A stretch of 64,000 nt of DNA from Methylobacterium organophilum. Lineage in GTDB: Bacteria; Pseudomonadota; Alphaproteobacteria; Rhizobiales; Beijerinckiaceae. Position numbers and translations under genes: made by a program. The notes beneath the pieces were generated by a model. The model saw only the letters and a program-made list of their open reading frames with translations. It was not told the origin of the DNA and did no database searches. This document shows positions 4,504-44,660 of the stretch, piece by piece; position 1 is the first letter of the stretch; each line of letters opens with the position of its first letter. The DNA lies in contig NZ_BPQV01000003.1 of NCBI RefSeq assembly GCF_022179465.1, positions 1 through 64,000 of the forward strand. The letters run 5' to 3'.

Positions 4504-6009
4504 ATGGCTTCGAATTCTGAAGTACAACAGAAGATTGCGCGGCTCCGCGCAGGCAAAAAACTGAGAATTCTCGACCTATTCTCAGGTTGCGGCGGACTCT
4601 CGCTTGGTTTCGATGCTGCCGGATTCGAAATTACCGCGGCCGTCGAGTTTGATCCAGATGCTGCAAAATCGCATGGCCTTAATTTTCACCCGCGGGATGC
4701 AAGGCATCATCAGCCTCGTGACATTACGGAAGTGACGCCGTCAAGGCTGGTCGCTGATCTCGATCTGGGCCCGGTCGCTTCCGCATTCGATGTGATCATC
4801 GGCGGCCCCCCGTGCCAAGCGTTCGCGCGGGTTGGAAGATCGAAGCTGCGTGAGGTCGCCGATCATCCGGAGGCGTTCCGGCATGATCCGCGCTCACGTC
4901 TGTATATCAAGTATCTGGATTACGTTGATGAGTGCAAGCCGCTCATCGTGGTAATGGAAAATGTGCCCGACATGCTGAACCATGGCGGGCACAACATCGC
5001 GGGGGAGGTCTGTGACGTTCTTACGGCCCGCGGTTATGAGTGCGCCTACACACTGCTGAACGCCGCATTCTTCGGCGTTCCCCAGATGCGGGAGCGGATG
5101 TTTCTGATCGCGATCCATGAGCAGCTGGACATGGCGGTCCGGTTCCCGACGCCGACGCACTGGATTGATCTGCCTTCGGGCTATGAAGGCTCGCGCGCCG
5201 TGGCACTCAAGCTCCTGGCCTCAACTGATAACCTCGAAGAGCGCAAGTACTACAGACCGGCGCCAGAGCCGTCACCAGACCTGCCGCCCGCGGTGACAGC
5301 GTCGGAGGCGCTTCGCGATCTGCCGCCGATACACGCTCGGAATGACCTTGCCTCCGGTGTCCTGAAAAGAGGCGCACGCCGGTTCGATCTGCCGGTCCCT
5401 TACGGTACTGCGGACGAGCTGACTCCCTTTGCGCGCAACATGCGGCAATGGCCGGGTTTCAGTGCTGGTAACGCTCTGTACGATCACGTCATTCGCTATC
5501 TCCCGCGGGATTACGAGATCTTTGCGCGCCTGAAGCCTGGGGACCAGTATCCCCAGGCCTACGCTCTGGCGCAAAGGATGTTCGATGAGGCTCTGGGACG
5601 CGAGGCATTGTTGACCGGCGTCAGGCCCCGGAAGGGAAGCCGTCGCTGGGATGAACTTCGCACAGCCACTGTGCCGCCGTACGACGCCAGCAAATTTCCC
5701 AACAAGTGGCGGAAGATGGAAGCCAATCTTCCCGCCCGCACGCTGATGGCTCACTTAGGCAAGGACAGCTACAGTCATATCCACTACGACAGCGATCAGG
5801 CGCGCACCATCTCGGTGCGCGAGGCGGCACGCCTTCAGTCCTTCCCGGACGGATTCAAATTCAGCGGTACCATGAATCCGGCTTTCCGCCAGATCGGAAA
5901 CGCGGTGCCGCCTCTTCTCAGCAAAGCCATTGCTGACTGCATCGCAGAGCAGATAGCAAAGGGTGCCGTCCTCCCGCTGAAACGGGTTGCGGGAGGGCGC
6001 AGCAGGTGA
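4504..6009 (+). CDS. DNA (cytosine-5) methyltransferase, Dcm family
   Basis: A 501-residue methyltransferase that transfers a methyl group from SAM to C5 of cytosine. Motif I is ILDLFSGCGGLSLGFDAAG (about residues 22-40), motif IV is IGGPPCQAF with the nucleophile near Cys104, motif VI is VVMENVPDML (about 150-158), motif VIII is QMRERMFLIA, and motif X is QIGNAVPPLLSKAIA near the end. The ATG at 4504 is preferred because AAGGCGG lies about 8 nt upstream. The 3' end overlaps the next gene as GTGA, so translation is coupled to the NurA-like nuclease. In the operon it probably marks self DNA. The insert before motif IX is longer than in small phage enzymes. Confidence 0.93.
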   Translation: MASNSEVQQKIARLRAGKKLRILDLFSGCGGLSLGFDAAGFEITAAVEFDPDAAKSHGLNFHPRDARHHQPRDITEVTPSRLVADLDLGPVASAFDVIIGGPPCQAFARVGRSKLREVADHPEAFRHDPRSRLYIKYLDYVDECKPLIVVMENVPDMLNHGGHNIAGEVCDVLTARGYECAYTLLNAAFFGVPQMRERMFLIAIHEQLDMAVRFPTPTHWIDLPSGYEGSRAVALKLLASTDNLEERKYYRPAPEPSPDLPPAVTASEALRDLPPIHARNDLASGVLKRGARRFDLPVPYGTADELTPFARNMRQWPGFSAGNALYDHVIRYLPRDYEIFARLKPGDQYPQAYALAQRMFDEALGREALLTGVRPRKGSRRWDELRTATVPPYDASKFPNKWRKMEANLPARTLMAHLGKDSYSHIHYDSDQARTISVREAARLQSFPDGFKFSGTMNPAFRQIGNAVPPLLSKAIADCIAEQIAKGAVLPLKRVAGGRSR

Positions 6010-7967
6010 GCAGGGCCACGAACGAGATCATCATCGTCCGGTCTCTGGCCGACTCCGACCTCGGCCTCTTCGCTGCGCACCGCGCGGCCGCGACAAGTAA
6101 GCAGCGCGCAATCAACATCAACGCACCCGCGGCGAAGCGCTTGATCTGTAAGGAGCTGTTCGAAGCGCGGAAAGCGAAGCTGACCGTCACGTGCGTGTTC
6201 GGAAAGCAGCGCGAAACAGCTGAAAGAACTCTCTATCGCACCGAAAAGAATTGGCGACTTGGCGGCAAAAAGATTACCATGACCGATTACGCTCTTCTGG
6301 ATTCAAAGGATTTTGTCCTGATCCGCTCGCCTGAGCACAATGATGGTAGTCACCCTGTCATTCTGACGTTCGTTTCAAAGAAGACCGACCGGGTCCTTCA
6401 CGCGGGCGTCGCTGCGGTCATCGAACGGCATCTGGAAAGCAGCACCGCAATCCTCGACCAGACGTCGCCTCTCTACAGCGATATTGCGAAGTTCTGCGCG
6501 GGGGAAAAGCCCCGGCTGGCAGCGCCGGTTCCTGCTTCGGCAGCAAAGAAGCCGGCACCGGTCGTCGCGGAACCTCCGATTCCGCCAATGCCCCTGGACG
6601 TGACCGCGGCAAAACCAAAGCGGCCCCGGACGATCCATGAGAAGGTCCGGTCGCCGCACATGCTCGAGAGGATGCTGCAGGTCGCCGGCGACCTGTCAGC
6701 GCCGGCCCAGCACCGCTTCATGGAAACGGTGGAGCTGCTGGCTCAGGACCTGCGGGCGGTGCTGCTTCATACCGGGCAGATCATAAAGCTGGAAAAAGAC
6801 CACAAGAGCCTCTGGAGCTCCATCGCCGGCCGGCCGGTCGGCTTCATCGACGGAGGGCTCGCCAACCTGTCAATGCTGGGATCTGCGCCGATCGCAGCCC
6901 GGGTCGGAGGTTACACGGTCACGCCAGGAGTTGCAGGCGAAACCCGCGAGCATTTCACGCACCTTAAATTCTTGATCGACGAGCTTTATAGCTACAACGA
7001 AGAGAATGGCGTATTCTCAGACAGCTTCCCCGATGTGGGCGCACTCCGGGATGCAGCCCGCATCTCCGTTGAAGCCGGCGGTGCGGTCCAGCTCGTAACG
7101 GACCGGCCTGATCTCTCCTGGCTGATGCTGCATGGCTCCCTGGTGAACCCGGTCTCTCGCTACACGGATGTGATGCGGGACGGCCAAGTGCGGAACAGGT
7201 TCCCGGATTTCTCTGCCGCTCACCTGAAAGACCTGCTTCCTGAGCCGGACTGCAGGCGCAAAGGCCGGGACCGGAATTTCATCAGCGTTTATCTGCGACA
7301 GCTTGAGCTGCTGCAGGAAGCTGAGGCTGTGGTGTGCGGTGTCGTTGAGCGGGAAAGCACGACATCCATCGTCTGTCGTGCCATTCTTAACAGCTTGAAA
7401 AACGCCGATATTGCCGATGTTATCGCTCAGCCGCCGGAAGAGTGGAAGAGGGACTTCCGGGAAGCTGTCGACCCTCTACACGACGAGGAAAGTGAAGGGC
7501 AGCGGATCACCGACTCTCTGCTGTTCCGCTGCGTACTTGAGCCCGGAGAAGCCCTCATTCCCGTCCCGCTGGATCGCAACGAGCTCAGGCGGGCGCCTAA
7601 GGCGTGGCAGGACGTTATCGTCCGGTACCCGAAGCCCTGGGTTTCCTACATGCAGGTCACTGAATGGAGCTCCCCCGTCCGGGTCGAGATGTTCGAGAAG
7701 GATGTACCGCGCTTTGAAGAGACTGCGAAGCTGGTCTTTCACTGCGCGCTGCTGCTTCCCCGCTACGCATTCCCGGTCGGGCTCGATATCGTCGACAAGT
7801 TCGCCAAAGTGCCGAACTGGATGAGCCGGCCGGTCAATACACATACAGCTGTAGTCGCGCTGAAGCGGGCTCTCGACTCGGGCGATACGCGCCTGTTCGA
7901 TGGTCTCCGCAGGATGCTCTGCGGTTCGAGCCGGGACTTTTTTCTGCGTCCAGGGATGCTCGGTTAA
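6006..7967 (+). CDS. Large NurA-like nuclease (HerA partner)
   Basis: A 653-residue protein with a GTG start overlapping the methyltransferase stop. Residues 1-200 form an unassigned domain followed by a Pro/Ala/Lys linker (about 175-215). The rest resembles the NurA nuclease fold: GRPVGFIDGGLANLSMLG (about 276-293) corresponds to the first acidic motif, usually DGS and here DGG, and later segments (LMLHGSLVNP, VSRYTDVMRDG) match the NurA pattern. Archaeal NurA is a 5'-3' nuclease that works inside a HerA hexamer, and a HerA-like gene follows 30 nt downstream. It is larger than archaeal NurA (about 350 residues). I infer it is the cutting subunit of a defence complex. The family call is moderate because the motifs are short. 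Confidence 0.7.
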   Translation: MSRATNEIIIVRSLADSDLGLFAAHRAAATSKQRAININAPAAKRLICKELFEARKAKLTVTCVFGKQRETAERTLYRTEKNWRLGGKKITMTDYALLDSKDFVLIRSPEHNDGSHPVILTFVSKKTDRVLHAGVAAVIERHLESSTAILDQTSPLYSDIAKFCAGEKPRLAAPVPASAAKKPAPVVAEPPIPPMPLDVTAAKPKRPRTIHEKVRSPHMLERMLQVAGDLSAPAQHRFMETVELLAQDLRAVLLHTGQIIKLEKDHKSLWSSIAGRPVGFIDGGLANLSMLGSAPIAARVGGYTVTPGVAGETREHFTHLKFLIDELYSYNEENGVFSDSFPDVGALRDAARISVEAGGAVQLVTDRPDLSWLMLHGSLVNPVSRYTDVMRDGQVRNRFPDFSAAHLKDLLPEPDCRRKGRDRNFISVYLRQLELLQEAEAVVCGVVERESTTSIVCRAILNSLKNADIADVIAQPPEEWKRDFREAVDPLHDEESEGQRITDSLLFRCVLEPGEALIPVPLDRNELRRAPKAWQDVIVRYPKPWVSYMQVTEWSSPVRVEMFEKDVPRFEETAKLVFHCALLLPRYAFPVGLDIVDKFAKVPNWMSRPVNTHTAVVALKRALDSGDTRLFDGLRRMLCGSSRDFFLRPGMLG

Positions 7968-7997
7968 ACATAACAGGCAAAGGGAGCGGGGCCCTGG

Positions 7998-9788
7998 ATG
8001 AACGCCATCAATGCTGAGGAAGTAAGCTCGCTCAAATCCTGGCGGCCGGTCGGCACCGTCGTGGGCAATGCAGGCACCTCCGAATTTACTTTCATCCTTC
8101 GTCAGTATCAGGCGCGCGTGGGCGACATTGTTGCCCTCAGCATGGAAGTGCCCGACGCTGCCTACAATGAGAAATCCCGGATCTATGTGTGGGCACGGAT
8201 CACTGACATCAGACGGTTCAATCCCTTCTTCCCGTTTGAGGCCGCTCAGGAAATCGCCGGTGAGGGAATCTCGCTCGAAGAAACTATCCTTTCGGGCACA
8301 AAGGACCAGCTCGAAGCTGCGGCGCTGATCCTCGGCGCTTCTGCCCCTGATGATCTCGCCAACCTTGCGCCGCTCACCTATCCGGTGAAGCCGGCCTCCA
8401 CGGTCTTCCATCCGCCTGCCGGTGCAGTCCGGAAACTGCTGATCGGAGGACGCGAGCAGGAGCGGGCCATCAAGGTAGGCTGCCTGATCGCCCGCTCTGA
8501 TGTCGACGTTACACTCTCAGCGTCGCGTCTGGTTTCCCGTCACCTAGCCATCCTCGCCATGACCGGCGGCGGCAAGACCGTCGCTGCACGCCGCATCATC
8601 CGCGAACTGATCCAGCAGCGATATCCGCTGCTGATCCTCGATCCTCACGGCGACTACATCGGCCTGTATAAGACGCGGGCGCTCCTAGAAGCGGAGACGC
8701 CGGGCGCAAAGATCAGGCTCTTCTATCCCGAGCTGCTCGTCCAGGAGGACGGGGAAGAGCTGGTGACGAAGCTGATTCTGCAGATGACCAGCGGTCTGAC
8801 TGATCCGCAGCGCGACTATCTCCATGGTCTGTATGATCGGGAGAAAACGAAGCACGGTGAGCAGGCTCTGAAATATATCGGCCGGCTGTTGTCCCGCGCC
8901 AACCAGGAAAAGAACAATGCCACGGCGCCTACTGGTCTGACCGGGGGCAACTGGAAGGGAACAATCGGCGCGATCTGCCGCGGTCTACGGATCGTTCAGG
9001 ATCGCCTAGATCGAATGGAGCGCAGCAGTAAACAGATGCGCGACAGGCTGAAGGACCTGGAGTTTGAGCCTCTGCCTAATCCGTTCAGCCAACCAGAGAA
9101 AATCATCCAGCCGGGTCAGGTCTCAATTCTATATCTTGGCGGCTACGATCACATCACGCAATGCTCTCTAGCTGCCATCACTCTTGAGACCCTGTTCGAA
9201 TTCCGCGCCACGCTGAGCAACAAGATTGCGCCGTTCTTTGCTGTGGTGGAGGAGGCGCACACCTTTATACCGTCTGCACGCGAGGGGACGCAGGATGCTG
9301 TCTCTCTACCTGTCGTCCGACGCATCATCACCGAGGGCCGTAAGTTCGGCACGGGTTTGATGCTGATCTCGCAGCGCCCGAGCCGGCTCGACGAGACTAT
9401 CATCTCTCAATGCAATTCATTCCTCATCCTCCGCTTGGTGAACCCCCGCGATCAGACCTTTGTGCGCTCTGTGATGGAGAACCTGTCCGAATCCGATGCC
9501 AGGCTGATCCCCGGATTCGGCCCTGGGCAAGGCATTGTCAGCGGGCAGGTCGTGCGGTTCCCGCTGCCGGTACGAATCCATATGGACAAGGAGCTGCTGG
9601 CGTCAGAGATCGGAGATGAGGACTTTTTTGATCAGGCAGAGCGTTGGGCGCCCGACGCGAATTCAGAGCGTCGTGCAGCGAGCGAGGCGCGTATGACACG
9701 CGTCAAAGCCAATCGGAAGCCGGCGCCCAAACCGGCAGCTAAACCGAAAACGAGCCCAAAGAGTACGGGCCGACGCCGCCGTTCATGA
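7998..9788 (+). CDS. HerA-like hexameric ATPase/DNA translocase
   Basis: A 596-residue P-loop ATPase of the HerA/FtsK type. The N-terminal 130 residues look like the beta-rich HAS-barrel. Walker A is AMTGGGKTVAAR (about 187-198), followed by LLILDPHGDY. Walker B is FFAVVEEAHTFIP (about 412-424), then RRIITEGRKFGTGLMLISQRPS and LRLVNPRDQ, typical of bacterial HerA proteins. The lysine-rich C-terminal tail (about 565-596) may bind DNA. A purine-rich AAAGGGAG lies about 17 nt before the ATG, farther than usual. Such ATPases pump DNA into a partner nuclease; the neighbour is NurA-like. The end overlaps vsr by four bases. Confidence 0.92.
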   Translation: MNAINAEEVSSLKSWRPVGTVVGNAGTSEFTFILRQYQARVGDIVALSMEVPDAAYNEKSRIYVWARITDIRRFNPFFPFEAAQEIAGEGISLEETILSGTKDQLEAAALILGASAPDDLANLAPLTYPVKPASTVFHPPAGAVRKLLIGGREQERAIKVGCLIARSDVDVTLSASRLVSRHLAILAMTGGGKTVAARRIIRELIQQRYPLLILDPHGDYIGLYKTRALLEAETPGAKIRLFYPELLVQEDGEELVTKLILQMTSGLTDPQRDYLHGLYDREKTKHGEQALKYIGRLLSRANQEKNNATAPTGLTGGNWKGTIGAICRGLRIVQDRLDRMERSSKQMRDRLKDLEFEPLPNPFSQPEKIIQPGQVSILYLGGYDHITQCSLAAITLETLFEFRATLSNKIAPFFAVVEEAHTFIPSAREGTQDAVSLPVVRRIITEGRKFGTGLMLISQRPSRLDETIISQCNSFLILRLVNPRDQTFVRSVMENLSESDARLIPGFGPGQGIVSGQVVRFPLPVRIHMDKELLASEIGDEDFFDQAERWAPDANSERRAASEARMTRVKANRKPAPKPAAKPKTSPKSTGRRRRS

Positions 9789-10258
9789 CCGATGTCCTCA
9801 CCGAAGAGCAACGCCGGCTCAATATGAGCCGGATACGCGGCCGGGATACTAAGCCGGAAATGCTCATCCGGCGTGGTCTCCATCGCCTCGGCTTTCGCTT
9901 CCGCCTCCAGCAGCGCGACCTTCCGGGCAAGCCCGACCTAGTGTTGCCCCGCTACCGGACTGGCATCTTCGTCCATGGCTGTTTCTGGCATGACCATGGA
10001 TGCTCACTGTGCAAGAGGCCGAAGACACGGCCAGAGTTCTGGGAGGCGAAGCTGACGGCAAACAGGGCACGCGACCAGAGAGTCCGACAGGCGCTCCTGG
10101 GGACCGGCTGGCGCGTCCTTACCGTCTGGGAATGTGCTCTACGTGGTCAAGGACGTCGGCCCCTCGAAGAGGTGCTGGGTGAGTGCGCAGCCTTCATTGT
10201 CGAGTCTGAAGCTTCCTCTCATGAGGTTGGCCAGCGGGCTCCGATCTTTGAGCCCTGA
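9785..10258 (+). CDS. vsr: Very short patch repair endonuclease Vsr
   Basis: A 157-residue endonuclease that nicks DNA 5' of T in T:G mismatches arising by deamination of 5-methylcytosine. The family signature is complete: MSRIRGRDTKPE near residue 14, GKPDLVLP with catalytic Asp51, and FVHGCFWHDHGC with His64 and His69. Candidate zinc ligands Cys66, His71, Cys73 and Cys117 fall at the same numbers as in E. coli Vsr. Its ATGA overlap with the HerA-like gene places it in the methyltransferase operon, where it would repair damage caused by the methylation. It is not expected to restrict foreign DNA itself. Confidence 0.95.
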   Translation: MTDVLTEEQRRLNMSRIRGRDTKPEMLIRRGLHRLGFRFRLQQRDLPGKPDLVLPRYRTGIFVHGCFWHDHGCSLCKRPKTRPEFWEAKLTANRARDQRVRQALLGTGWRVLTVWECALRGQGRRPLEEVLGECAAFIVESEASSHEVGQRAPIFEP

Positions 10259-10263
10259 CGGAC

Positions 10264-11139
10264 TCAGCGCTTTCTACCCGTCGTCTCAAGCACCTTCCGA
10301 AGGTCATCGAACACGAAGGCGGCGGGGCGCCCAATCAGGAAGGATGGCGCGAATTTGTCGATCAGATGCTGCCCTGGGTCCAGAAAGCCGCGAACATGCT
10401 GTCGCGCAGCCTTCAGCTGGGCACCTGAAGGGTTCGTGATCCCATCCCGCTTCATGATGGCAGTGACCATCCGCTCCAGACGGGGTCCACGATCTTTTGC
10501 CCTGCAATGTCTCCGAATGTATGTCAGGAGAGCCTGAAAGAATAGTCCTTGGCAGTGAAAGGACTGCATCTCATGGCTAAGTGTCTTTGCAAACGCACCA
10601 GTCACGTTCGAGCTCGAGCTCACTTCGCGATAAAATGCCAGGGTCTGAGCCTCAAGGAAGCCAATGCTGATTTCTGATGGGGGTGCGCCGAAGAAATACG
10701 CCGGAGCAGGTTTCATCAGGCTGACCTCTCTGTAGAGGTGCAGGCCGAAACATAGCGCGAAGATAGAAACGAGATTGTTAGAAGTTGCTGTATTTAGCTC
10801 ACGGAGAAGCTCGATAACTTCCGCCCAGCCCACGCGGTCGCCGCTGGGCGCGAGAAGAAGGCCTTCGGCGGCCGTTCCGTGTGCATCAACATGAAGTACC
10901 GGTCGAAGTCCCTGTGCGGCACGGTCCTTGAGCTCGCCCAGCTGCCTCACCAGCTCAGCCCGATTTTTAACCGCGTACTCGAATACCTGAAATCCTCCGG
11001 CGGCAGCGAGGCCTTCCAGATCTTCAAGTATTCGCCGCGTTGGCCCCATCTCTGCTTCTGGAAGCGAGTGTATCCAAACGATGCAGTTTATGTGTATTGT
11101 CTCTGTTATCGGGAGGCCTTTGGTTGAGTAAGATATCAT
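10264..11139 (-). CDS. Caspase/CHAT-like peptidase candidate
   Basis: A 291-residue protein convergent with the defence operon, only 5 nt away. It starts with a hydrophobic strand (INCIVWIHSL), then a helix-strand pair. PVLHVDAHG ends with His87-Gly88, and VSIFALCFGLH contains Cys130. Together these look like the His/Cys dyad of caspase-fold (clan CD, CHAT-type) peptidases, where HG and a Cys after a hydrophobic strand are separated by about 40 residues. The segment between them (GLLLAPSGDRVGWAEVIELL) also fits CHAT proteins. The C-terminal 130 residues are helical and unassigned. In defence loci such peptidases act as suicide effectors. The fold call rests on motif reading only. Confidence 0.55.
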   Translation of the reverse strand: MISYSTKGLPITETIHINCIVWIHSLPEAEMGPTRRILEDLEGLAAAGGFQVFEYAVKNRAELVRQLGELKDRAAQGLRPVLHVDAHGTAAEGLLLAPSGDRVGWAEVIELLRELNTATSNNLVSIFALCFGLHLYREVSLMKPAPAYFFGAPPSEISIGFLEAQTLAFYREVSSSSNVTGAFAKTLSHEMQSFHCQGLFFQALLTYIRRHCRAKDRGPRLERMVTAIMKRDGITNPSGAQLKAARQHVRGFLDPGQHLIDKFAPSFLIGRPAAFVFDDLRKVLETTGRKR

Positions 11140-11191: not shown

Positions 11192-11398
11192 TCACGGCTT
11201 CTGCCGGTTGTAAGGGGATTGATTGGTCGGCTTAAGCGAAATGCCTTCCTCGCTGGCTTTTGATTGTATGGCCCCCGGAGAGCGGCCCATCTTGAGCCCA
11301 ATTACGCGCGTTGGCGTGTTGCCCTTGGCGAGCTCCTTCAACTGGCGCACTTCACTGGGCGACCACTCCTTGCCCGAATTGGTCGGTTTCTTTGCCAT
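11192..11398 (-). CDS. Small SANT/Myb-like DNA-binding protein
   Basis: A 68-residue basic protein (MAKKPTNSGKEWSPSEVRQL, then GNTPTRVIGLKMGRSPGAIQ and EGISLKPTNQSPY). The pattern of a tryptophan-containing helix followed by a TPTRVIGLKLGRS-type recognition helix is found in many small rhizobial proteins that I remember as highly conserved and annotated as hypothetical or SANT/Myb-like. It probably binds DNA. It has its own upstream region and the same orientation as the peptidase gene, so the two could be cotranscribed. Confidence 0.8.
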   Translation of the reverse strand: MAKKPTNSGKEWSPSEVRQLKELAKGNTPTRVIGLKMGRSPGAIQSKASEEGISLKPTNQSPYNRQKP

Positions 11399-11942
11399 AA
11401 ATCTGATCCTGTAGCATACGAATAGGCCTAAGGGCCCCAGTACAAAGAGTGCTCGAAACTCTTTGTTCCCTGTTGGGGCGGAAATTTTCGCGATCGTGCC
11501 GAGACTGGATTCGAAGCATCTTCGCCAATGTCGAATAAATCAGATTGTAGCGATACTATCCCTCGCTTCGGGAATGAGATACATGTGCCAATTCTCAGTG
11601 AAGAAAATGAATTGCACGCGCACAGCGCGTAGCGCGGACTTGGCGTGAGCATTTTCCATGTGCCGCCAGCACCGTTGAGGGATCATGATTGTTCGACGAC
11701 GAGATTAGACCATTATTGACTGCCTATAAGCAAAACTGCTGAAATACAGCTTGCTTCACTGTGAATCCACATTAAATTCTCGCTGAGCGCCCGCCAATCT
11801 ACTATCCTATCATCAAAGCAAATGAACAATATCTGATTTACTTCGAGCATATTCATGTTGAATTTGATGCTCAAATGCAGCCCCCCTAGAAATCCGCCCA
11901 TCGCGGACGTTGCCACGCGTCAGATTTCATTGGTCGCCCGCC
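11399..11942. other. AT-rich junction without a recognisable gene
   Basis: About 540 bases with clearly lower GC than the flanks, especially 11,700-11,880. Short reverse frames exist (11428-11652 and 11713-11916), but they have no family resemblance or ribosome-binding site. The segment separates the phage early operon, which ends at 11,943, from the defence island. It may be the scar where late phage genes were lost or the island was inserted. Leftward transcription of the SANT/Myb-like gene must start here. Confidence 0.45.
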
Positions 11943-12293
11943 TCATTCGACCCCTCCAGCCGGTTGGACCATCACCAGCAAGAGGTGAGTCAGCGCGAGA
12001 TCGACGTGGCGCTGCGCCGTCGTCCGGCTCCAGCCACGCAGCCGGCAGGTCTCGCGGAAGGTGCCTTCGTCCACTTGGGCGCGGCACCACGCCTTGAGCT
12101 GCTCGCGATGCTCCCGGTCCGGGATCTCCCGCTCGACCAGGCGACGGATGCGCAGGTCGAGCGGGTAGGGACCGAGATCGGGGTCTGGGGGCTTATCGGT
12201 CAGGGCTGAGATGATCCACGCCACGGCCTGCCGGTGGCTGTAGCGCGGCGGGTAAACCGGAACGTCAGGTTTTGCGATACGCGACGCCATCAC
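11943..12293 (-). CDS. Phage-type helix-turn-helix protein, last gene of the leftward early operon
   Basis: A 116-residue protein. The C-terminal half (FRETCRLRGWSRTTAQRHVDLALTHLL) looks like a helix-turn-helix, and the middle (DLRIRRLVEREIPDREHREQLKAWCRAQ) is helical and charged. Proteins of this kind are commonly found just before the terminase genes of alphaproteobacterial temperate phages, where they may switch on late transcription. Here nothing structural follows. Function is inferred from position; no named family is assigned. Confidence 0.6.
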   Translation of the reverse strand: MMASRIAKPDVPVYPPRYSHRQAVAWIISALTDKPPDPDLGPYPLDLRIRRLVEREIPDREHREQLKAWCRAQVDEGTFRETCRLRGWSRTTAQRHVDLALTHLLLVMVQPAGGVE

Positions 12294-12319
12294 GCTCCGA
12301 GCCGAGTCCTGCTTGGCGC

Positions 12320-12757
12320 CTACGCAGCCTGAGACGCCCGTCCGCCGGGCCGGCCGAGACCGATCTCCTTGGCGAGAGCGGAGCGCGCCGCCGAATAGTT
12401 GGGCGCAACCATCGGGTAATCGTCCGGCAAGCCGTAGCGCCGACGGTAGGCGACGGGGTCGAGCCCATGGGTGCCGAGGTGCCGCTTGAGGGTCTTGTAC
12501 GGCTTGCCGTCGATGAAGCTGATCAGCGCCTGGGGCGTGATCGACTTATGAATTTGCTTGGGCGTGGCCTGCTCGACCGCGGCTTCCTCGGCCGGGACCG
12601 CCGGCGAGCCGCCGAGGCTGGACAAGGCCGCGTAGACGCTCGTGATGAGCCCGGGCAGTTCCTTGGCCGGCAGGACGTTGTTCGTGACGAAGGCAGTCAC
12701 GATGTCGGCCGTGAGACTCAGCGAGATCTCGTCGAGGGTCGTGTTGTCGTTGGACAT
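12320..12757 (-). CDS. MucR/Ros-family transcriptional regulator without the zinc cysteine
   Basis: A 145-residue member of the MucR/Ros family: LTADIVTAFVTNN and LPGLITSVYAAL (helical oligomerisation half), then ITPQALISFIDGKPYKTLKRHL, and RRRYGLPDDYPMVAPNYSAARSALAKEIGLG. In Ros the zinc is held by Cys, Asp and two His. Here Asp83, His93 and His97 are kept but the cysteine position is Ser80. Rhizobial relatives with this change are known to fold and bind AT-rich DNA without zinc. In phage early regions such proteins may act as silencers or regulators. Confidence 0.9.
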   Translation of the reverse strand: MSNDNTTLDEISLSLTADIVTAFVTNNVLPAKELPGLITSVYAALSSLGGSPAVPAEEAAVEQATPKQIHKSITPQALISFIDGKPYKTLKRHLGTHGLDPVAYRRRYGLPDDYPMVAPNYSAARSALAKEIGLGRPGGRASQAA

Positions 12758-12767
12758 GGTGTGCTCC

Positions 12768-13199
12768 TCAGGTTGGAGGGTTGGACCGCCCGAACAGCCA
12801 CAGCGGCACGCTCTCGGCGGGATTGGTGAGGCCGCGGTCGACGAGGACAGAGCCGCGGCGTTCGAGGTGGATCTCGCGCTCGCAGATCGCGATGCAGCGG
12901 CGCGGGTAGAGGGTGACCAGTGCGCCTGTGCTGTCCGGACGGAGGGCGCCGGCGAGCCGGTGCACGCCGAAGAGCGATTCCGTCGACCAGCCGAGACGAG
13001 CGGCGTCCTCGCCCCACTGATCGAGGAAGCGCACCATCATGGCGTGGACGCCGGCCCAGACGCCGAACCGACCGGCCTGCCCGGGCTCGCGCCAGAGGAG
13101 GCCCGGCGCCGGTACGCGCTCCGGGTCGAGCGAGCGCACGCCGGCATACCAGGAGGCGACGAGCGCCTGCGGCTCGGTGAGGGCGAAGGCGACGCTCAT
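12768..13199 (-). CDS. Phage-associated hypothetical protein
   Basis: A 143-residue protein of unknown function (FGVWAGVHAMMVRFLDQWGEDAARLGWSTESLFGVHRL, then a beta-rich ALVTLYPRRCIAI). The pattern resembles a protein I remember from Methylobacterium prophages, always in early operons and without known activity. It starts ATG and overlaps the stop of the upstream gene by 4 nt, and lies 10 nt before the MucR-like gene. No catalytic motif is seen. Confidence 0.65.
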   Translation of the reverse strand: MSVAFALTEPQALVASWYAGVRSLDPERVPAPGLLWREPGQAGRFGVWAGVHAMMVRFLDQWGEDAARLGWSTESLFGVHRLAGALRPDSTGALVTLYPRRCIAICEREIHLERRGSVLVDRGLTNPAESVPLWLFGRSNPPT

Positions 13200-13954
13200 C
13201 CCCCTGCCCTCTCCACGCGCCGGGGTGTTCTGGCGTCGAGGTTCGCCATCAGCCGCCCGATCGTCTGCGGGTCGGCGGCCTCCCGCAGCGCCGCCGCGGC
13301 CTTCGCGGTCTCGCCCCGGCGGGCGAGCTCGACCTCGGCCGCCGTCGGCTCGGCTTGGTCCCGCTCGACGGTGACGGCGTGGCGCTGCTCCAGATAGCGC
13401 CTCGCCTCCGCCTCGACCTTCGCCCGGTCCGCCTCGCTCGGCGGCTCGTAGACCTCGGCCTCGAGGATCTGGCGGACGTGGAGGAGCCGACGCCGCAGGG
13501 GGATCAGCGCCTCGCGGGCCTCGGCCGCGAATTCAGCCGGCGAAGGCCGCCAGCGCCGGGACCAGGGCAGCAGCGTCTCGCCGCTCCGGAAGCGCCCGGC
13601 CGCCTTGTGGATGGCCGCGATCGGGAGCCCCTGCAGGGCCTCGATGTACTCGCCGACGAGGATCTCGTTCTCCTCGTCGCTCCGCCCGCGCCCCTGCTCG
13701 AAGCCGGCGAGGATGCGCGACACCACCGTGTCGATCATGCGCCGATCCGTGCAGGGCGCGAGCATGAGCTCACACCGCTTTGCGACGTCGCAGAGCGCTT
13801 GACGCTCGGCTGTCGTGGCCGCCAAAGCCCGCGGCACGCAGAAGCGCGTCGGATGGCCGTCCACCGGAGCCAGAGCTCCACGCAATGCCGAGATCTTCGC
13901 CTCGACTTGGCTCGGCGCCGGGATCGTTCGCGTCGACGGCAGGCGGTTCGACAT
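13196..13954 (-). CDS. Phage early protein, probably replication-associated
   Basis: A 252-residue protein. ATTAERQALCDVAKRCELML, VSRILAGFEQGRGRSDEENEILVGEYIEAL and LPWSRRWRPSPAEFAAEA follow the pattern of alphaproteobacterial phage proteins that come directly after DUF1376 replication proteins, where a helicase-loader-like role is suspected but unproven. The second half is charged and helical, with coiled-coil potential. With the ATG at 13,954 it overlaps the upstream gene by 185 nt in another frame. An alternative ATG at 13,765 would remove the overlap but cut a segment that looks family-like. Confidence 0.65.
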   Translation of the reverse strand: MSNRLPSTRTIPAPSQVEAKISALRGALAPVDGHPTRFCVPRALAATTAERQALCDVAKRCELMLAPCTDRRMIDTVVSRILAGFEQGRGRSDEENEILVGEYIEALQGLPIAAIHKAAGRFRSGETLLPWSRRWRPSPAEFAAEAREALIPLRRRLLHVRQILEAEVYEPPSEADRAKVEAEARRYLEQRHAVTVERDQAEPTAAEVELARRGETAKAAAALREAADPQTIGRLMANLDARTPRRVERAGG

Positions 13955-14732
13955 CGTAGGCTCCCCTCAGGGATTGCTCGTGAAGGCGGATCAGACGGCC
14001 GATGAAGCCGCTGGGAGCTGCGCGCGGGCCGCCGGGCCCGAGCGGGGGCGAGCGGTGCGGCCGGTACCGGCGACACCATTTCCGCCAGGAGATGCGCCAA
14101 TCGTGGGAGAGGAAGTTCCGCTCAAGGTTCCAGTCGCGGAACTGCTCGGCCTCGCGGGGCACCGCTTCCGGCGGCACGCCGGCAGCCGCCGCGATCGCCT
14201 CGTCCTCGGCGTCGGGATACCAGTCTCGAGGGAGCGGGGTCGCGCGCGCCTGAGAGGGAGAATCCTCTTCTAATTCTTCTTCTCTATCTGCCAACGCGCG
14301 TTCAACGGCCGTTCGCTCGTTTTGTTGATTTCGTTGAGGTTTTTCGAAAGATTTAGCCGCGGCTAATTTCGCGCGCGTTTTTCTTTTCTGTCGCTCGGTG
14401 CCGCTGATGCGGCCCGCTGCAGCGGCGTCCAGGCTACGGGCGCGCTGCCATTCCAGCTCCTCGTGCGTCGACGCGCTGTCGATCCGATCGCCGCTGAGCA
14501 GGGCGATCTTCCCGGCCTGGGCGAGGCTTTCGATCGCCGCGCCGGCACGCCGCTCGGTAAGCCCCGTGCGCCGGGCCAGGGTGCGGGCGGTGTCCGCGAT
14601 CGGGCCGCCGGTCTCGTAGATCCGGAGCAGCACGGTCACGTAGATCAGCCCCTCGTCGGGCTGAAGCCCGGACAGGGCGCCGAGCAGGGCGCTGGGTCCA
14701 CAGCGAAACCATGGGAGACGGTCAGAGCTCAT
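13770..14732 (-). CDS. DUF1376 protein, phage replication-initiator-like
   Basis: A 320-residue protein. Residues 3-100 (DRLPWFRCGPSALLGALSGL, RIYETGGPI, ARRTGLTERRAGAAIESL) are the DUF1376 winged-helix domain found in phage replication-initiation proteins. A charged linker (about 105-165) follows. Residues 168-225 (WYPDAEDEAIAAAAG, EQFRDWNLERNFLSHDWRISWRKWCRRY) form a DnaT-like C-terminal DNA-binding module. The last about 65 residues are low-complexity and overlap the next gene, so the true end may be earlier. It sits 4 nt after rusA and would load the host replication machinery at a phage origin. Confidence 0.82.
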   Translation of the reverse strand: MSSDRLPWFRCGPSALLGALSGLQPDEGLIYVTVLLRIYETGGPIADTARTLARRTGLTERRAGAAIESLAQAGKIALLSGDRIDSASTHEELEWQRARSLDAAAAGRISGTERQKRKTRAKLAAAKSFEKPQRNQQNERTAVERALADREEELEEDSPSQARATPLPRDWYPDAEDEAIAAAAGVPPEAVPREAEQFRDWNLERNFLSHDWRISWRKWCRRYRPHRSPPLGPGGPRAAPSGFIGRLIRLHEQSLRGAYDVEPPAVDANDPGAEPSRGEDLGIAWSSGSGGRPSDALLRAAGFGGHDSRASSALRRRKAV

Positions 14733-14736
14733 GGCG

Positions 14737-15231
14737 CTACTCCGCGGCCATTGGGGCGGACGCTATCGGCGACTGAAAAATCACCGCCTGCTGCGGCTCC
14801 AGCGCGGTCACCACGACGACGAGCTCGGGCTTCTCCGCGTAGAATTTGCGCACCACGCCATCGACGACGGCCGCATCGTCAGCCCAGACGACGTGGTTCA
14901 GGGCGTCCGTCACCTTGGCGATGTTGTCCCAGTCGGGCTTGCCGACCGGGCGGATCCGGCGCTCCAGCGCGTCCAGGCGCTTGCGCTTCGACCAGCTCGC
15001 CGGGATCGGCAGGAAGGCGAAGATCTTCACGTCGAGCTGCCCGGTCAGCAGCGGGCGCCCGCGCATGGCGGCGCCGGCGGCGAGCCGCAGCGCGCCTTCG
15101 TACGCCTCGGTCTTCTGGTCAGGGTGCGCGTGGATCCGGGGCTGCTGCCCCGGACGCTGAACGAGCTGCGCGCGGTGCCGCCCCTTGCCGCGAGGCGCGC
15201 CCGGCAGGCGGATCGTGACGGAGACGGGCAC
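14737..15231 (-). CDS. RusA-family Holliday junction resolvase
   Basis: A 164-residue endonuclease of the RusA family, resolving four-way junctions during phage recombination or replication. Seen: a SVTIRLPGAPRGKGRHR start, KIFAFLPIPASWSKRKR, then KPDWDNIAKVTDALNHVVWADDAAVVD, carrying the conserved aspartates (DWDN and DDAAVVD) that bind the metal ions, and a KFYAEKPELVVVVTAL strand. Length fits the family (120-165). It is cotranscribed with the DUF1376 gene. The alternating helix and strand pattern leaves little doubt about the family. Confidence 0.92.
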   Translation of the reverse strand: MPVSVTIRLPGAPRGKGRHRAQLVQRPGQQPRIHAHPDQKTEAYEGALRLAAGAAMRGRPLLTGQLDVKIFAFLPIPASWSKRKRLDALERRIRPVGKPDWDNIAKVTDALNHVVWADDAAVVDGVVRKFYAEKPELVVVVTALEPQQAVIFQSPIASAPMAAE

Positions 15232-15243
15232 CGCGCGCCTCCC

Positions 15244-15846
15244 TCAGGCGCTGGCGGCGGCGCGGCGGCGACGGCTCTTCGGGGCCGCCTGCTCGTTCTC
15301 GCCTTCGCTCTCCTCGTTGGCCTCGTCCTCCGGAGGCTCCGGAAGGTCGCCGGTCTCGGGCAGCAGGTTGTCGCCGGCGTCGCCCAGGATCTCGCCTGTC
15401 TCCGGATCGTGCGCGGGCGCGCCGTCGATCGGAAGGTCGGGCTGATCCTTGTCGGCCTGGGGCTCCCCGCGGGAGCCCATGAAGCCCTGCACGCTGGCGA
15501 AGACGAGGATCGCCTGCTTGCCGCCATTGCTCGCGAGCTTCGTGATCTCCTCGACGGAATCGGAACCTGAGACCTCGAGCTTGATGCCCTCCTTCACGGT
15601 CCACTTGCCGAGGCTGACGATCATGTGCGGGAAGTCGCGATGGGCGACGAGCTTCACTGCCTCGCGCACCAGCTCCGAGGAGATGCGCGCCGCATTATTG
15701 ATGACGTCGCGCTGCTCGCGCTCGCTCATCTTGGTCCAGCACGGCATGCAGCGCACAATGTCGTCGAGGATCTTGTTCTGCACGTCGCCGCGGAGGGTTT
15801 CCGCTTGAAACTCAGTGCCTTCTGTGGCTTCCATTGCCTTCTCCAT
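15244..15846 (-). CDS. Phage-associated hypothetical protein with acidic tail
   Basis: About 200 residues. The N-terminal two thirds are a compact domain (RGDVQNKILDDIVRCMPCWTKMSEREQRDVINNAARISSELVREAVKLVA, then DSVEEITKLASNGGKQAILVFA). The last 60 residues are acidic and end with SRRRRAAASA. I remember similar proteins in Methylobacterium and rhizobial prophage early operons but know no function. Alternative starts exist at 15,870 and 15,834; none has a strong ribosome-binding site. Its place before rusA suggests a role in DNA metabolism. Confidence 0.65.
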   Translation of the reverse strand: MEKAMEATEGTEFQAETLRGDVQNKILDDIVRCMPCWTKMSEREQRDVINNAARISSELVREAVKLVAHRDFPHMIVSLGKWTVKEGIKLEVSGSDSVEEITKLASNGGKQAILVFASVQGFMGSRGEPQADKDQPDLPIDGAPAHDPETGEILGDAGDNLLPETGDLPEPPEDEANEESEGENEQAAPKSRRRRAAASA

Positions 15847-15918
15847 AGCGGGCACAGCGCCCGACCTCATTGACCGCCCGGTTCCCGCTTCGCCGGTGGG
15901 AGCCGGGCGGTTCGCGTT

Positions 15919-16182
15919 TCAGGGGAGTGATCGGCCAGCCGGCAGGCGTGGGTCGGCGCCAGGGATCGGGGGCAGCAGCGGGCCGTGATGGGTGGCGGGC
16001 CAAGGAGAGCCAGCCCGCATCTGCGCCAGGTCCTGGCGGGAGGTGGTCAGCAGCGCGAGCACCAGCCCGATCGGATCCTCGCTCGGCCCGATGCCGGGAA
16101 GCGTGGTCGCGAGCCAGTCGACGACGCGCTGCTCGTCCGGGCTGAACGGGCCGCGCAGGGGAAGGGGCTCGGCATTCGCCAT
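15919..16182 (-). CDS. Phage-associated small hypothetical protein
   Basis: An 87-residue protein (LPLRGPFSPDEQRVVDWLATTLPGIGPSEDPIGLVLALLTTSRQDL). I chose the ATG at 16,182 because GGAGG lies about 9 nt upstream; a longer frame to 16,272 has an Arg-rich, non-coding-looking extension. No transmembrane segment and no domain are recognised. Operon position suggests an accessory early function. Confidence 0.5.
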   Translation of the reverse strand: MANAEPLPLRGPFSPDEQRVVDWLATTLPGIGPSEDPIGLVLALLTTSRQDLAQMRAGSPWPATHHGPLLPPIPGADPRLPAGRSLP

Positions 16183-44356: not shown

Positions 44357-44446
44357 GCGCAGGCCAGGACCATGGCCGCGATTGTCCCGAAGGCGGCCAT
44401 CCGCTCCGATTGCAAGTCCAGATCCGAGCCGCTAGGGTCCGCAGCG

Positions 44447-44615
44447 ACGGTGCCTCGGCGACGAGGTGAAAAGGGAACGCGGGCCGGGGCCTCAGCCTCG
44501 AAGCCGCGGCTGCCCCCGCAACTGTGAGCGGCACACGTGCCCGCCATCGGCCACTGGAGTGATCCGGGAAGGCGGTGGGCATATCAGACGCCGCGAGCCA
44601 GGAGACCTGCCGTCA
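44447..44615 (+). ncRNA. Cobalamin (AdoCbl) riboswitch
   Basis: The order of conserved blocks is complete: GGTGCC at the start, GAAAAGGGAACGCGG, the core GCTGCCCCCGCAACTGT, CCACTGG with GGGAAGGC, and the B12 box AGCCAGGAGACCTGCC at 44,597-44,612. It lies 46 nt before cbtB. Binding of adenosylcobalamin should reduce expression of the cobalt uptake and cob genes downstream. Confidence 0.95.
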
Positions 44616-44660
44616 CCCGCTATCTCTCAACGCCGCCGGCGGGGCGGCCGGAGCCTGACC

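Follow-up and report, generated by a model that had tools for sequence, protein, structure and literature searches.

We predict that the window analyzed here, the first 64,000 nucleotides of contig NZ_BPQV01000003.1 of Methylobacterium organophilum, carries a four-gene operon that is probably an ATP-dependent restriction-modification system. The operon encodes a Dcm-type C5 cytosine DNA methyltransferase (Dcm), a two-part protein that we call P2, a HerA-type DNA-translocating ATPase (HerA) and a Vsr T:G mismatch endonuclease (Vsr). In the scheme that we favor, a B3-type DNA-recognition domain in P2 reads the unmethylated Dcm site, and HerA and the NurA-like part of P2 destroy the DNA that carries it. 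Dcm would mark a short sequence of host DNA by cytosine methylation, and the B3 domain would bind the same sequence when it is unmethylated. This binding would set the P2 nuclease and a HerA ring on that DNA; HerA would hydrolyze ATP and feed the DNA into the NurA-like domain, which would degrade it. Vsr would correct T:G mismatches arising from deaminated 5-methylcytosine. We infer that the B3 domain reads the Dcm site with a preference for its unmethylated form, that P2 has an active nuclease and forms a complex with HerA, and that the DNA attacked comes from phages or plasmids.

A first-pass annotation of this DNA had described a tightly packed four-gene operon, and the open reading frames, their overlaps and the gap lie as it described. 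It had also proposed that HerA-NurA degrades whatever is unmethylated. The NurA assignment and the HerA-NurA pairing stand; the indiscriminate attack is amended to a site-read restriction step, given the B3 domain. The operon co-encodes a methyltransferase, a nuclease and a site-recognition part, two of these domains being recognized by predicted fold.

P2 has no match in Pfam, PADLOC (PADLOC-DB 2.0.0, 2023) or NCBIfam at E≤0.1, in scans that covered 10 window proteins with Pfam and 8 with PADLOC, and a profile search of the Protein Data Bank (PDB) with P2 gave no useful match. In two fold comparisons (among 998 and 996 chains), B3 recognition domains rank top for the N-terminal half, and NurA ranks top for the C-terminal half. 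The predicted fold of the N-terminal part is a B3 pseudo-barrel, and that of the C-terminal part is a NurA fold. The first-pass annotation had left a long N-terminal domain of the nuclease (about 200 residues) unassigned; the domain is present and can be assigned, with about 165 residues appearing to form a B3 restriction-enzyme recognition domain. Predicted fold is the sole evidence for the B3 identity of residues 1-165. In the linker region, blocks of the predicted local distance difference test (pLDDT) score 34-45 over residues 171-230, and conservation is poor.

The NurA-like domain also matches by sequence profile. Profile-profile comparison with 24 NurA sequences (from 25 loci, L076 giving none; only frames with DG followed by S or T were kept, which favors motif I members) gave a score of 55.5, E 3e-6 and probability 88%. 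As controls, 10 column shuffles gave no score above 21.3, and four unrelated profile pairs none above 23.5. The fold match and the controlled profile match bear out the earlier NurA assignment, and the NurA-like acidic motif noticed in the first pass is GFIDGG at P2 residues 279-284. Within it, hhalign places D282 of FIDGG opposite the Asp of DGSQ, the motif I Asp (DGS) of NurA. By alignment, the candidate active-site residues of P2 are D282, E356, H376, D503 and D597.

The other three proteins are identified more directly. Dcm matches PF00145 (E 7.5e-59) and TIGR00675 (E 7.4e-54), and the complete set of C5-methylase motifs claimed earlier is there to be read (DLFSGCGG, GGPPCQ, ENV, GNAV). 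HerA matches PF01935 (E 7.1e-25) and the NF040819 HerA model (E 3.9e-53, yet under its curated cut-off). Its best PDB sequence match is Thermococcus kodakarensis HerA of the HerA-NurA complex (9x1l, E 3.2e-45), ahead of nine others listed; other HerA-family PDB sequences match it less well. This closest match agrees with the proposed HerA-NurA pairing. The strict Walker A and B patterns found no match in HerA; the Walker A/B set named in the first pass is nonetheless recognizable, as MTGGGKT and VVEEAH align to the corresponding stretches of T. kodakarensis HerA. Vsr matches TIGR00632 above the cut-off (E 5.4e-45) and aligns with Escherichia coli Vsr (1cw0, E 5e-33) through PGKPD, HGCFWHxHxC and WEC, which we take to be the active-site and zinc residues. 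The claim that all such residues are present is slightly too strong if Thr at position 63 is counted, since E. coli Vsr has Thr and this protein Val.

Several results weigh against the proposed restriction mechanism. For the B3 domain, a Pfam search over 20 B3 members gave only three matches, all at chance level and none of them to a B3 or EcoRII-N family, and a PDB sequence search with the B3 profile gave nothing useful. PF09217 (EcoRII-N) had E≤1 matches in 20 of 289 genomes, above its cut-off in 2, and did not pick out P2 in its own genome at E≤1. An hhalign comparison of B3 with EcoRII-N, using only the two sequences above that cut-off, gave 0.1% probability. For the nuclease, Foldseek alone gave the NurA domain model only E 0.11, and the model itself is weak (pLDDT 60.8). 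The curated NurA profile PF09376 finds no P2 match in its own genome at E≤10, and in five relatives' genomes the NurA Pfam model matched nothing at all at E≤0.01 (0/5). Motif III reads HG(S/A)L in 10 rows of the P2 family and HGPL in L035, a NurA-like locus described below, versus DGxL in 21 of the 24 NurA sequences; this alignment was set by pattern and predicted strand, and hhalign does not settle it. A His appears at the position of the motif III Asp (DGxL), so P2 appears to depart from canonical NurA there, and its nuclease could therefore be altered or inactive. The mode of initiation is a further difficulty. T. kodakarensis HerA is described as feeding DNA to NurA, with double-stranded DNA cleavage requiring the HerA ATPase, and is proposed to supply it with strand ends; without HerA, NurA cut single-stranded circles but not double-stranded ones (PMC12977600). 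A start on closed DNA is therefore hard to explain. Relative L035 also has a NurA-like/HerA pair (5946-10675) with no B3 domain, convergent with a DrmMII-like methyltransferase. Such a HerA-NurA can thus accompany a different Dcm and have no reader fused to it.

Between the HerA-NurA class and the Mza/DISARM class, identity in the predicted recognition arms of the B3 domain (residues 14-36 and 78-91) is 70%, versus 42% for the rest of the domain, a comparison weakened by arm limits that were set after the alignment had been viewed. We take these limits to follow in part the EcoRII-N and BfiI structures. The arms exceed the remainder in 150 of 150 pairs (the pairs are not independent), and random blocks equal this in 1 of 300 (40-pair sample). 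They are likewise favored within the HerA-NurA class (73 vs 48%) and towards L036 and L037, two distant relatives (46 and 49% vs 17 and 20% elsewhere). Because the arms are equally favored within the class and towards L036 and L037, high arm conservation alone proves no shared target; as a sign of one common target it is suggestive only.

The arrangement is found elsewhere. Nine relatives of P2 retain it wholly or in part, and we conclude that it is not due to chance. Dcm is immediately upstream of P2 in 9/9. HerA is immediately downstream in 8/9 (one of the 8 is a 158-amino-acid stub) and the ninth reaches the contig end; the adjacent HerA partner of the NurA family is seen in the window and in 8/9 relatives. 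Vsr is present in 6/9. Two of the three outcomes that the first-pass annotation had named as fatal to its reading, an absent NurA fold and an unconserved gene order, thus did not occur. The one other match in the class sample, in G364 (32% identity over residues 111-228, E 1.2e-4), was excluded from further counts. No P2 relatives were found in the phages collection, and the 7 pattern matches in viral_contigs included no true relative.

This distribution bears on whether the operon could be a housekeeping HerA-NurA pair for DNA-end repair that adjoins a Dcm-Vsr pair by chance. The nearest PDB match of HerA is an archaeal HerA whose part in end resection has been studied, as that explanation would have it. 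The B3 domain, however, is sporadic, occurring in 0/8 other same-genus genomes examined. A fused reader and a gene order with Dcm that recur in distant taxa indicate an accessory system subject to exchange. We regard the housekeeping explanation as extremely unlikely.

Some relatives have further genes beside them. In L014 (a Chitinophaga metagenome-assembled genome), an AspBHI-N/Mrr-type methyl-directed restriction gene (13793-14959) lies between HerA and an inverted Vsr. In L012 (Hyphomicrobium D-2), an OLD/GajA-like AAA protein (14225-16057) immediately follows Vsr. A protein that we call Y follows Vsr in L003 (9051-9560) and relatives, in 10 of 13 loci with a stand-alone B3 protein; beside one HerA-NurA locus, L009, it is on the opposite strand (14299-14778, minus). 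The copy in L020 matches PADLOC mREase_II models (E 1.3e-49).

The methyl-directed restriction genes near some relatives (the AspBHI/Mrr type in L014, and Y by the mREase_II match of its L020 copy) would suit a type IV-like system in which the B3 domain recognizes modified cytosine. Such a reader would attack host DNA methylated by its own Dcm unless the target sequences differ, and the closest B3 precedent, LlaJI, is described as reading an unmodified site (PMC12707154). We find a methyl-directed role very improbable.

We also found the B3 family with effectors other than HerA-NurA. It adjoins a Dcm in 22/22 loci of genome_contigs, and in 13 of these it stands alone as a protein encoded right after Dcm, within the Dcm-B3-Vsr modules that Mza and DISARM loci contain; Vsr is present in 12 of the 13. 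The window Dcm is 62-69% identical to the Dcms that adjoin 9 full-length P2 relatives and 63-67% identical to those of the 13 loci where B3 stands alone. Four kinds of effector part are found fused to B3 in the loci read. The NurA fusion occurs in the window and 9 relatives; the others are distant and known by profile only, with a MORC ATPase (L036), a McrB-like AAA protein (L037) and NOV_C (L094). L095 resembles L094 by eye, without a NOV_C Pfam match. A further point against the proposed restriction mechanism is that single-sequence BLAST (E≤1e-3) found no B3 part in L036 or L037. The B3 profile was built with both, so their scores with it are built in; both had first come to light with the P2 profile. 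B3 profile searches scored at most 12 or at most 9 candidates per genome, and AIPR was identified by annotation and Pfam.

The constant company of Dcm could mean that B3 is a partner of the methyltransferase, helping Dcm to find or bind its site, and that HerA-NurA acts by another cue such as free ends. The position of the separate B3 protein right after Dcm is in keeping with this, as are the HerA-NurA-like genes without a fused reader in L035. In the loci read, however, B3 is fused only to effector parts and never to Dcm, and in LlaJI (PMC12707154) and CglI/NgoAVII (PMC4267653) it is described as belonging to the restriction side. Because it is fused to effector parts, we predict that B3 serves restriction rather than methylation, and we consider the methyltransferase-partner role unlikely.

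Trees of Dcm and B3 (omitting L005, L006, L035 and L094-L096) show that effectors have been repeatedly exchanged around Dcm and B3. On the Dcm tree of 27 sequences, four effector labels require 6 changes (minimum 3), compared with a mean of 11.7 for shuffled labels, and a count as low was reached in 0/200 shuffles. DISARM loci are interspersed with Mza loci, and the approximately unbiased test rejects one common DISARM clade (p 3e-78 under that model). It does not reject one common HerA-NurA clade (p 0.15), though such a clade is not demonstrated. The B3 tree also gives 6 changes and groups the Mza and DISARM rows except L036 (100/99), with very long branches for L036 and L037. Mean Dcm identity to the window over residues 1-215 is 69% for HerA-NurA, 67% for Mza (without L036) and 67% for DISARM; over residues 300-395 it is 53, 51 and 50%. 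For L037 (44 and 42%) and L036 (56 and 40%) it is lower.

A broader proposal, which we hold with slightly more doubt than belief, is that B3 is a portable site-reading subunit that, together with Dcm and Vsr, makes up a self/non-self module open to exchange. At least five unrelated machines that destroy DNA would enforce one target or close variants of it: HerA-NurA, Mza, DISARM, a McrBC-like pair and a NOV_C nuclease consisting of one protein. In that case the B3 protein that stands alone would be the sequence-recognition subunit so far missing from those Mza and DISARM loci, and could be how they distinguish self from foreign sites.

The window begins at the first base of the contig (C3), which is the contig end. 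Downstream of the operon, genes at 11192-15870 (minus strand) match phage families (a D5-like regulator, a primosomal protein, a RusA-like resolvase), together with a ROS/MUCR regulator; this is a probable prophage. Given these phage-type genes, a prophage or island may carry the operon as cargo. Convergent with Vsr is a gene for a 291-amino-acid protein (10264-11139, minus) that matches phrog_38219, a family with no assigned function (E 5.6e-21). It has no match in Pfam, PADLOC or NCBIfam and none of use in the PDB. Its HVDAHG and FALCFG stretches resemble a caspase-like His/Cys pair. A cobalamin riboswitch (105.1 bits) is at 44431-44628 on the plus strand. The features of the operon are given in Table 1.

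Table 1. Features of the predicted restriction-modification operon (window positions)
Feature	Position	Strand	Basis or remark
Dcm-type C5 cytosine DNA methyltransferase, 501 aa	4504-6009	+	ATG start at 4504; PF00145, TIGR00675, motifs
P2, 653 aa	6006-7967	+	GTG start inside GTGA overlap with Dcm
P2 residues 1-165, putative B3-type DNA-recognition domain	6006-6500	+	Predicted fold
KNWRLGG, P2 residues 81-87	6246-6266	+	
P2 residues 166-204, low-confidence linker	6501-6617	+	pLDDT, poor conservation
P2 residues 205-653, NurA-fold domain	6618-7967	+	
HerA-type DNA-translocating ATPase, 596 aa	7998-9788	+	Starts after 30-nt gap; PF01935, NF040819, PDB match
Vsr T:G mismatch endonuclease, 157 aa	9785-10258	+	ATGA overlap with HerA; TIGR00632, alignment to 1cw0

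Parts of this arrangement are known from other systems. A 2008 paper described operons in which MORC, helicase and restriction endonuclease genes accompany Dcm and Vsr (PMC2292703), and HerA/FtsK capture systems have also been described (PMC10853773). In the open-licence PMC literature (subscription journals and preprints lie outside this scope), we found no Dcm/B3-NurA/HerA/Vsr system, no common B3 subunit of Mza and DISARM, and 0 papers that combine "HerA", "B3 domain" and "restriction". Since neither this literature nor PADLOC, for P2, holds such a system, the novelty would be a HerA-NurA variant of B3-guided, ATP-dependent restriction.

Mza (mzaABCDE) and DISARM loci with the Dcm-B3-Vsr module share a related Dcm, a homologous B3 protein and usually Vsr with the window. 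DrmA and DrmB of DISARM were not found; among the 8 window proteins searched with PADLOC, only DrmMII models match, through Dcm. HerA-DUF4297, active against phage lambda, likewise combines a HerA motor with a partner nuclease, but the nuclease differs and the word "methyltransferase" is absent from the main text of that report (PMC11291478). Neither a DUF4297 nor a SIR2 effector, as in HerA-DUF4297 and HerA-SIR2, was found by Pfam or PADLOC in P2. The HerA-NurA end-processing complex has the same HerA and NurA folds in neighboring genes, and differs in that here a B3 domain is fused, Dcm and Vsr are partners, and motif III apparently has His versus Asp in most of the NurA sequences compared.

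The Tth111II-NurA-TdtA-methylase operon of ICEth1 in Thermus thermophilus also combines restriction and methylase genes, NurA and a HerA-like ATPase. It differs in having a type IIG enzyme and an N4/N6 methylase rather than Dcm, the passages concerned mention no B3 domain, and it was studied for DNA donation (PMC5365140). By analogy, the present operon could move or process DNA for cell-to-cell transfer. HerA, NurA and DNA modification occur together in both, and the NurA-like and Tth111II genes beside tdtA are reported as required for efficient transjugation (PMC5365140). However, the Pfam scan found no transfer gene in the operon, the B3 family swaps among the recognized defense modules Mza and DISARM, and Vsr suits maintenance of 5-methylcytosine, not transfer. 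We judge a role in transfer to be very unlikely.

The proposed site-read restriction is closest in logic to two other systems, an analogy that suggests how it may work. In LlaJI, a B3 domain reads an unmodified asymmetric site, and two methyltransferases serve that site (PMC12707154). Its motor and nuclease are McrB and McrC, versus HerA and NurA here, and it has two methyltransferases versus one plus Vsr. A McrB-like GTPase and a McrC-like nuclease are not among the four operon proteins; a McrBC-like pair occurs in relative L037. The B3 domain of LlaJI reportedly sits on the motor, whereas here it is on the nuclease, and the LlaJI methyltransferases are said to be of C5 type. If the proposed mechanism is true, the HerA-NurA motor-nuclease would be one more machine that a B3 reader directs in ATP-dependent restriction, which would explain how a processive end-resection machine could become site-selective. 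R.CglI and R.NgoAVII are described as a nuclease joined to a B3 domain with a required ATPase partner (PMC4267653, PMC5737866). As in the present operon, B3 and nuclease are in one protein, the ATPase is separate, and the methyltransferase is related to type II 5-cytosine enzymes (PMC4267653).

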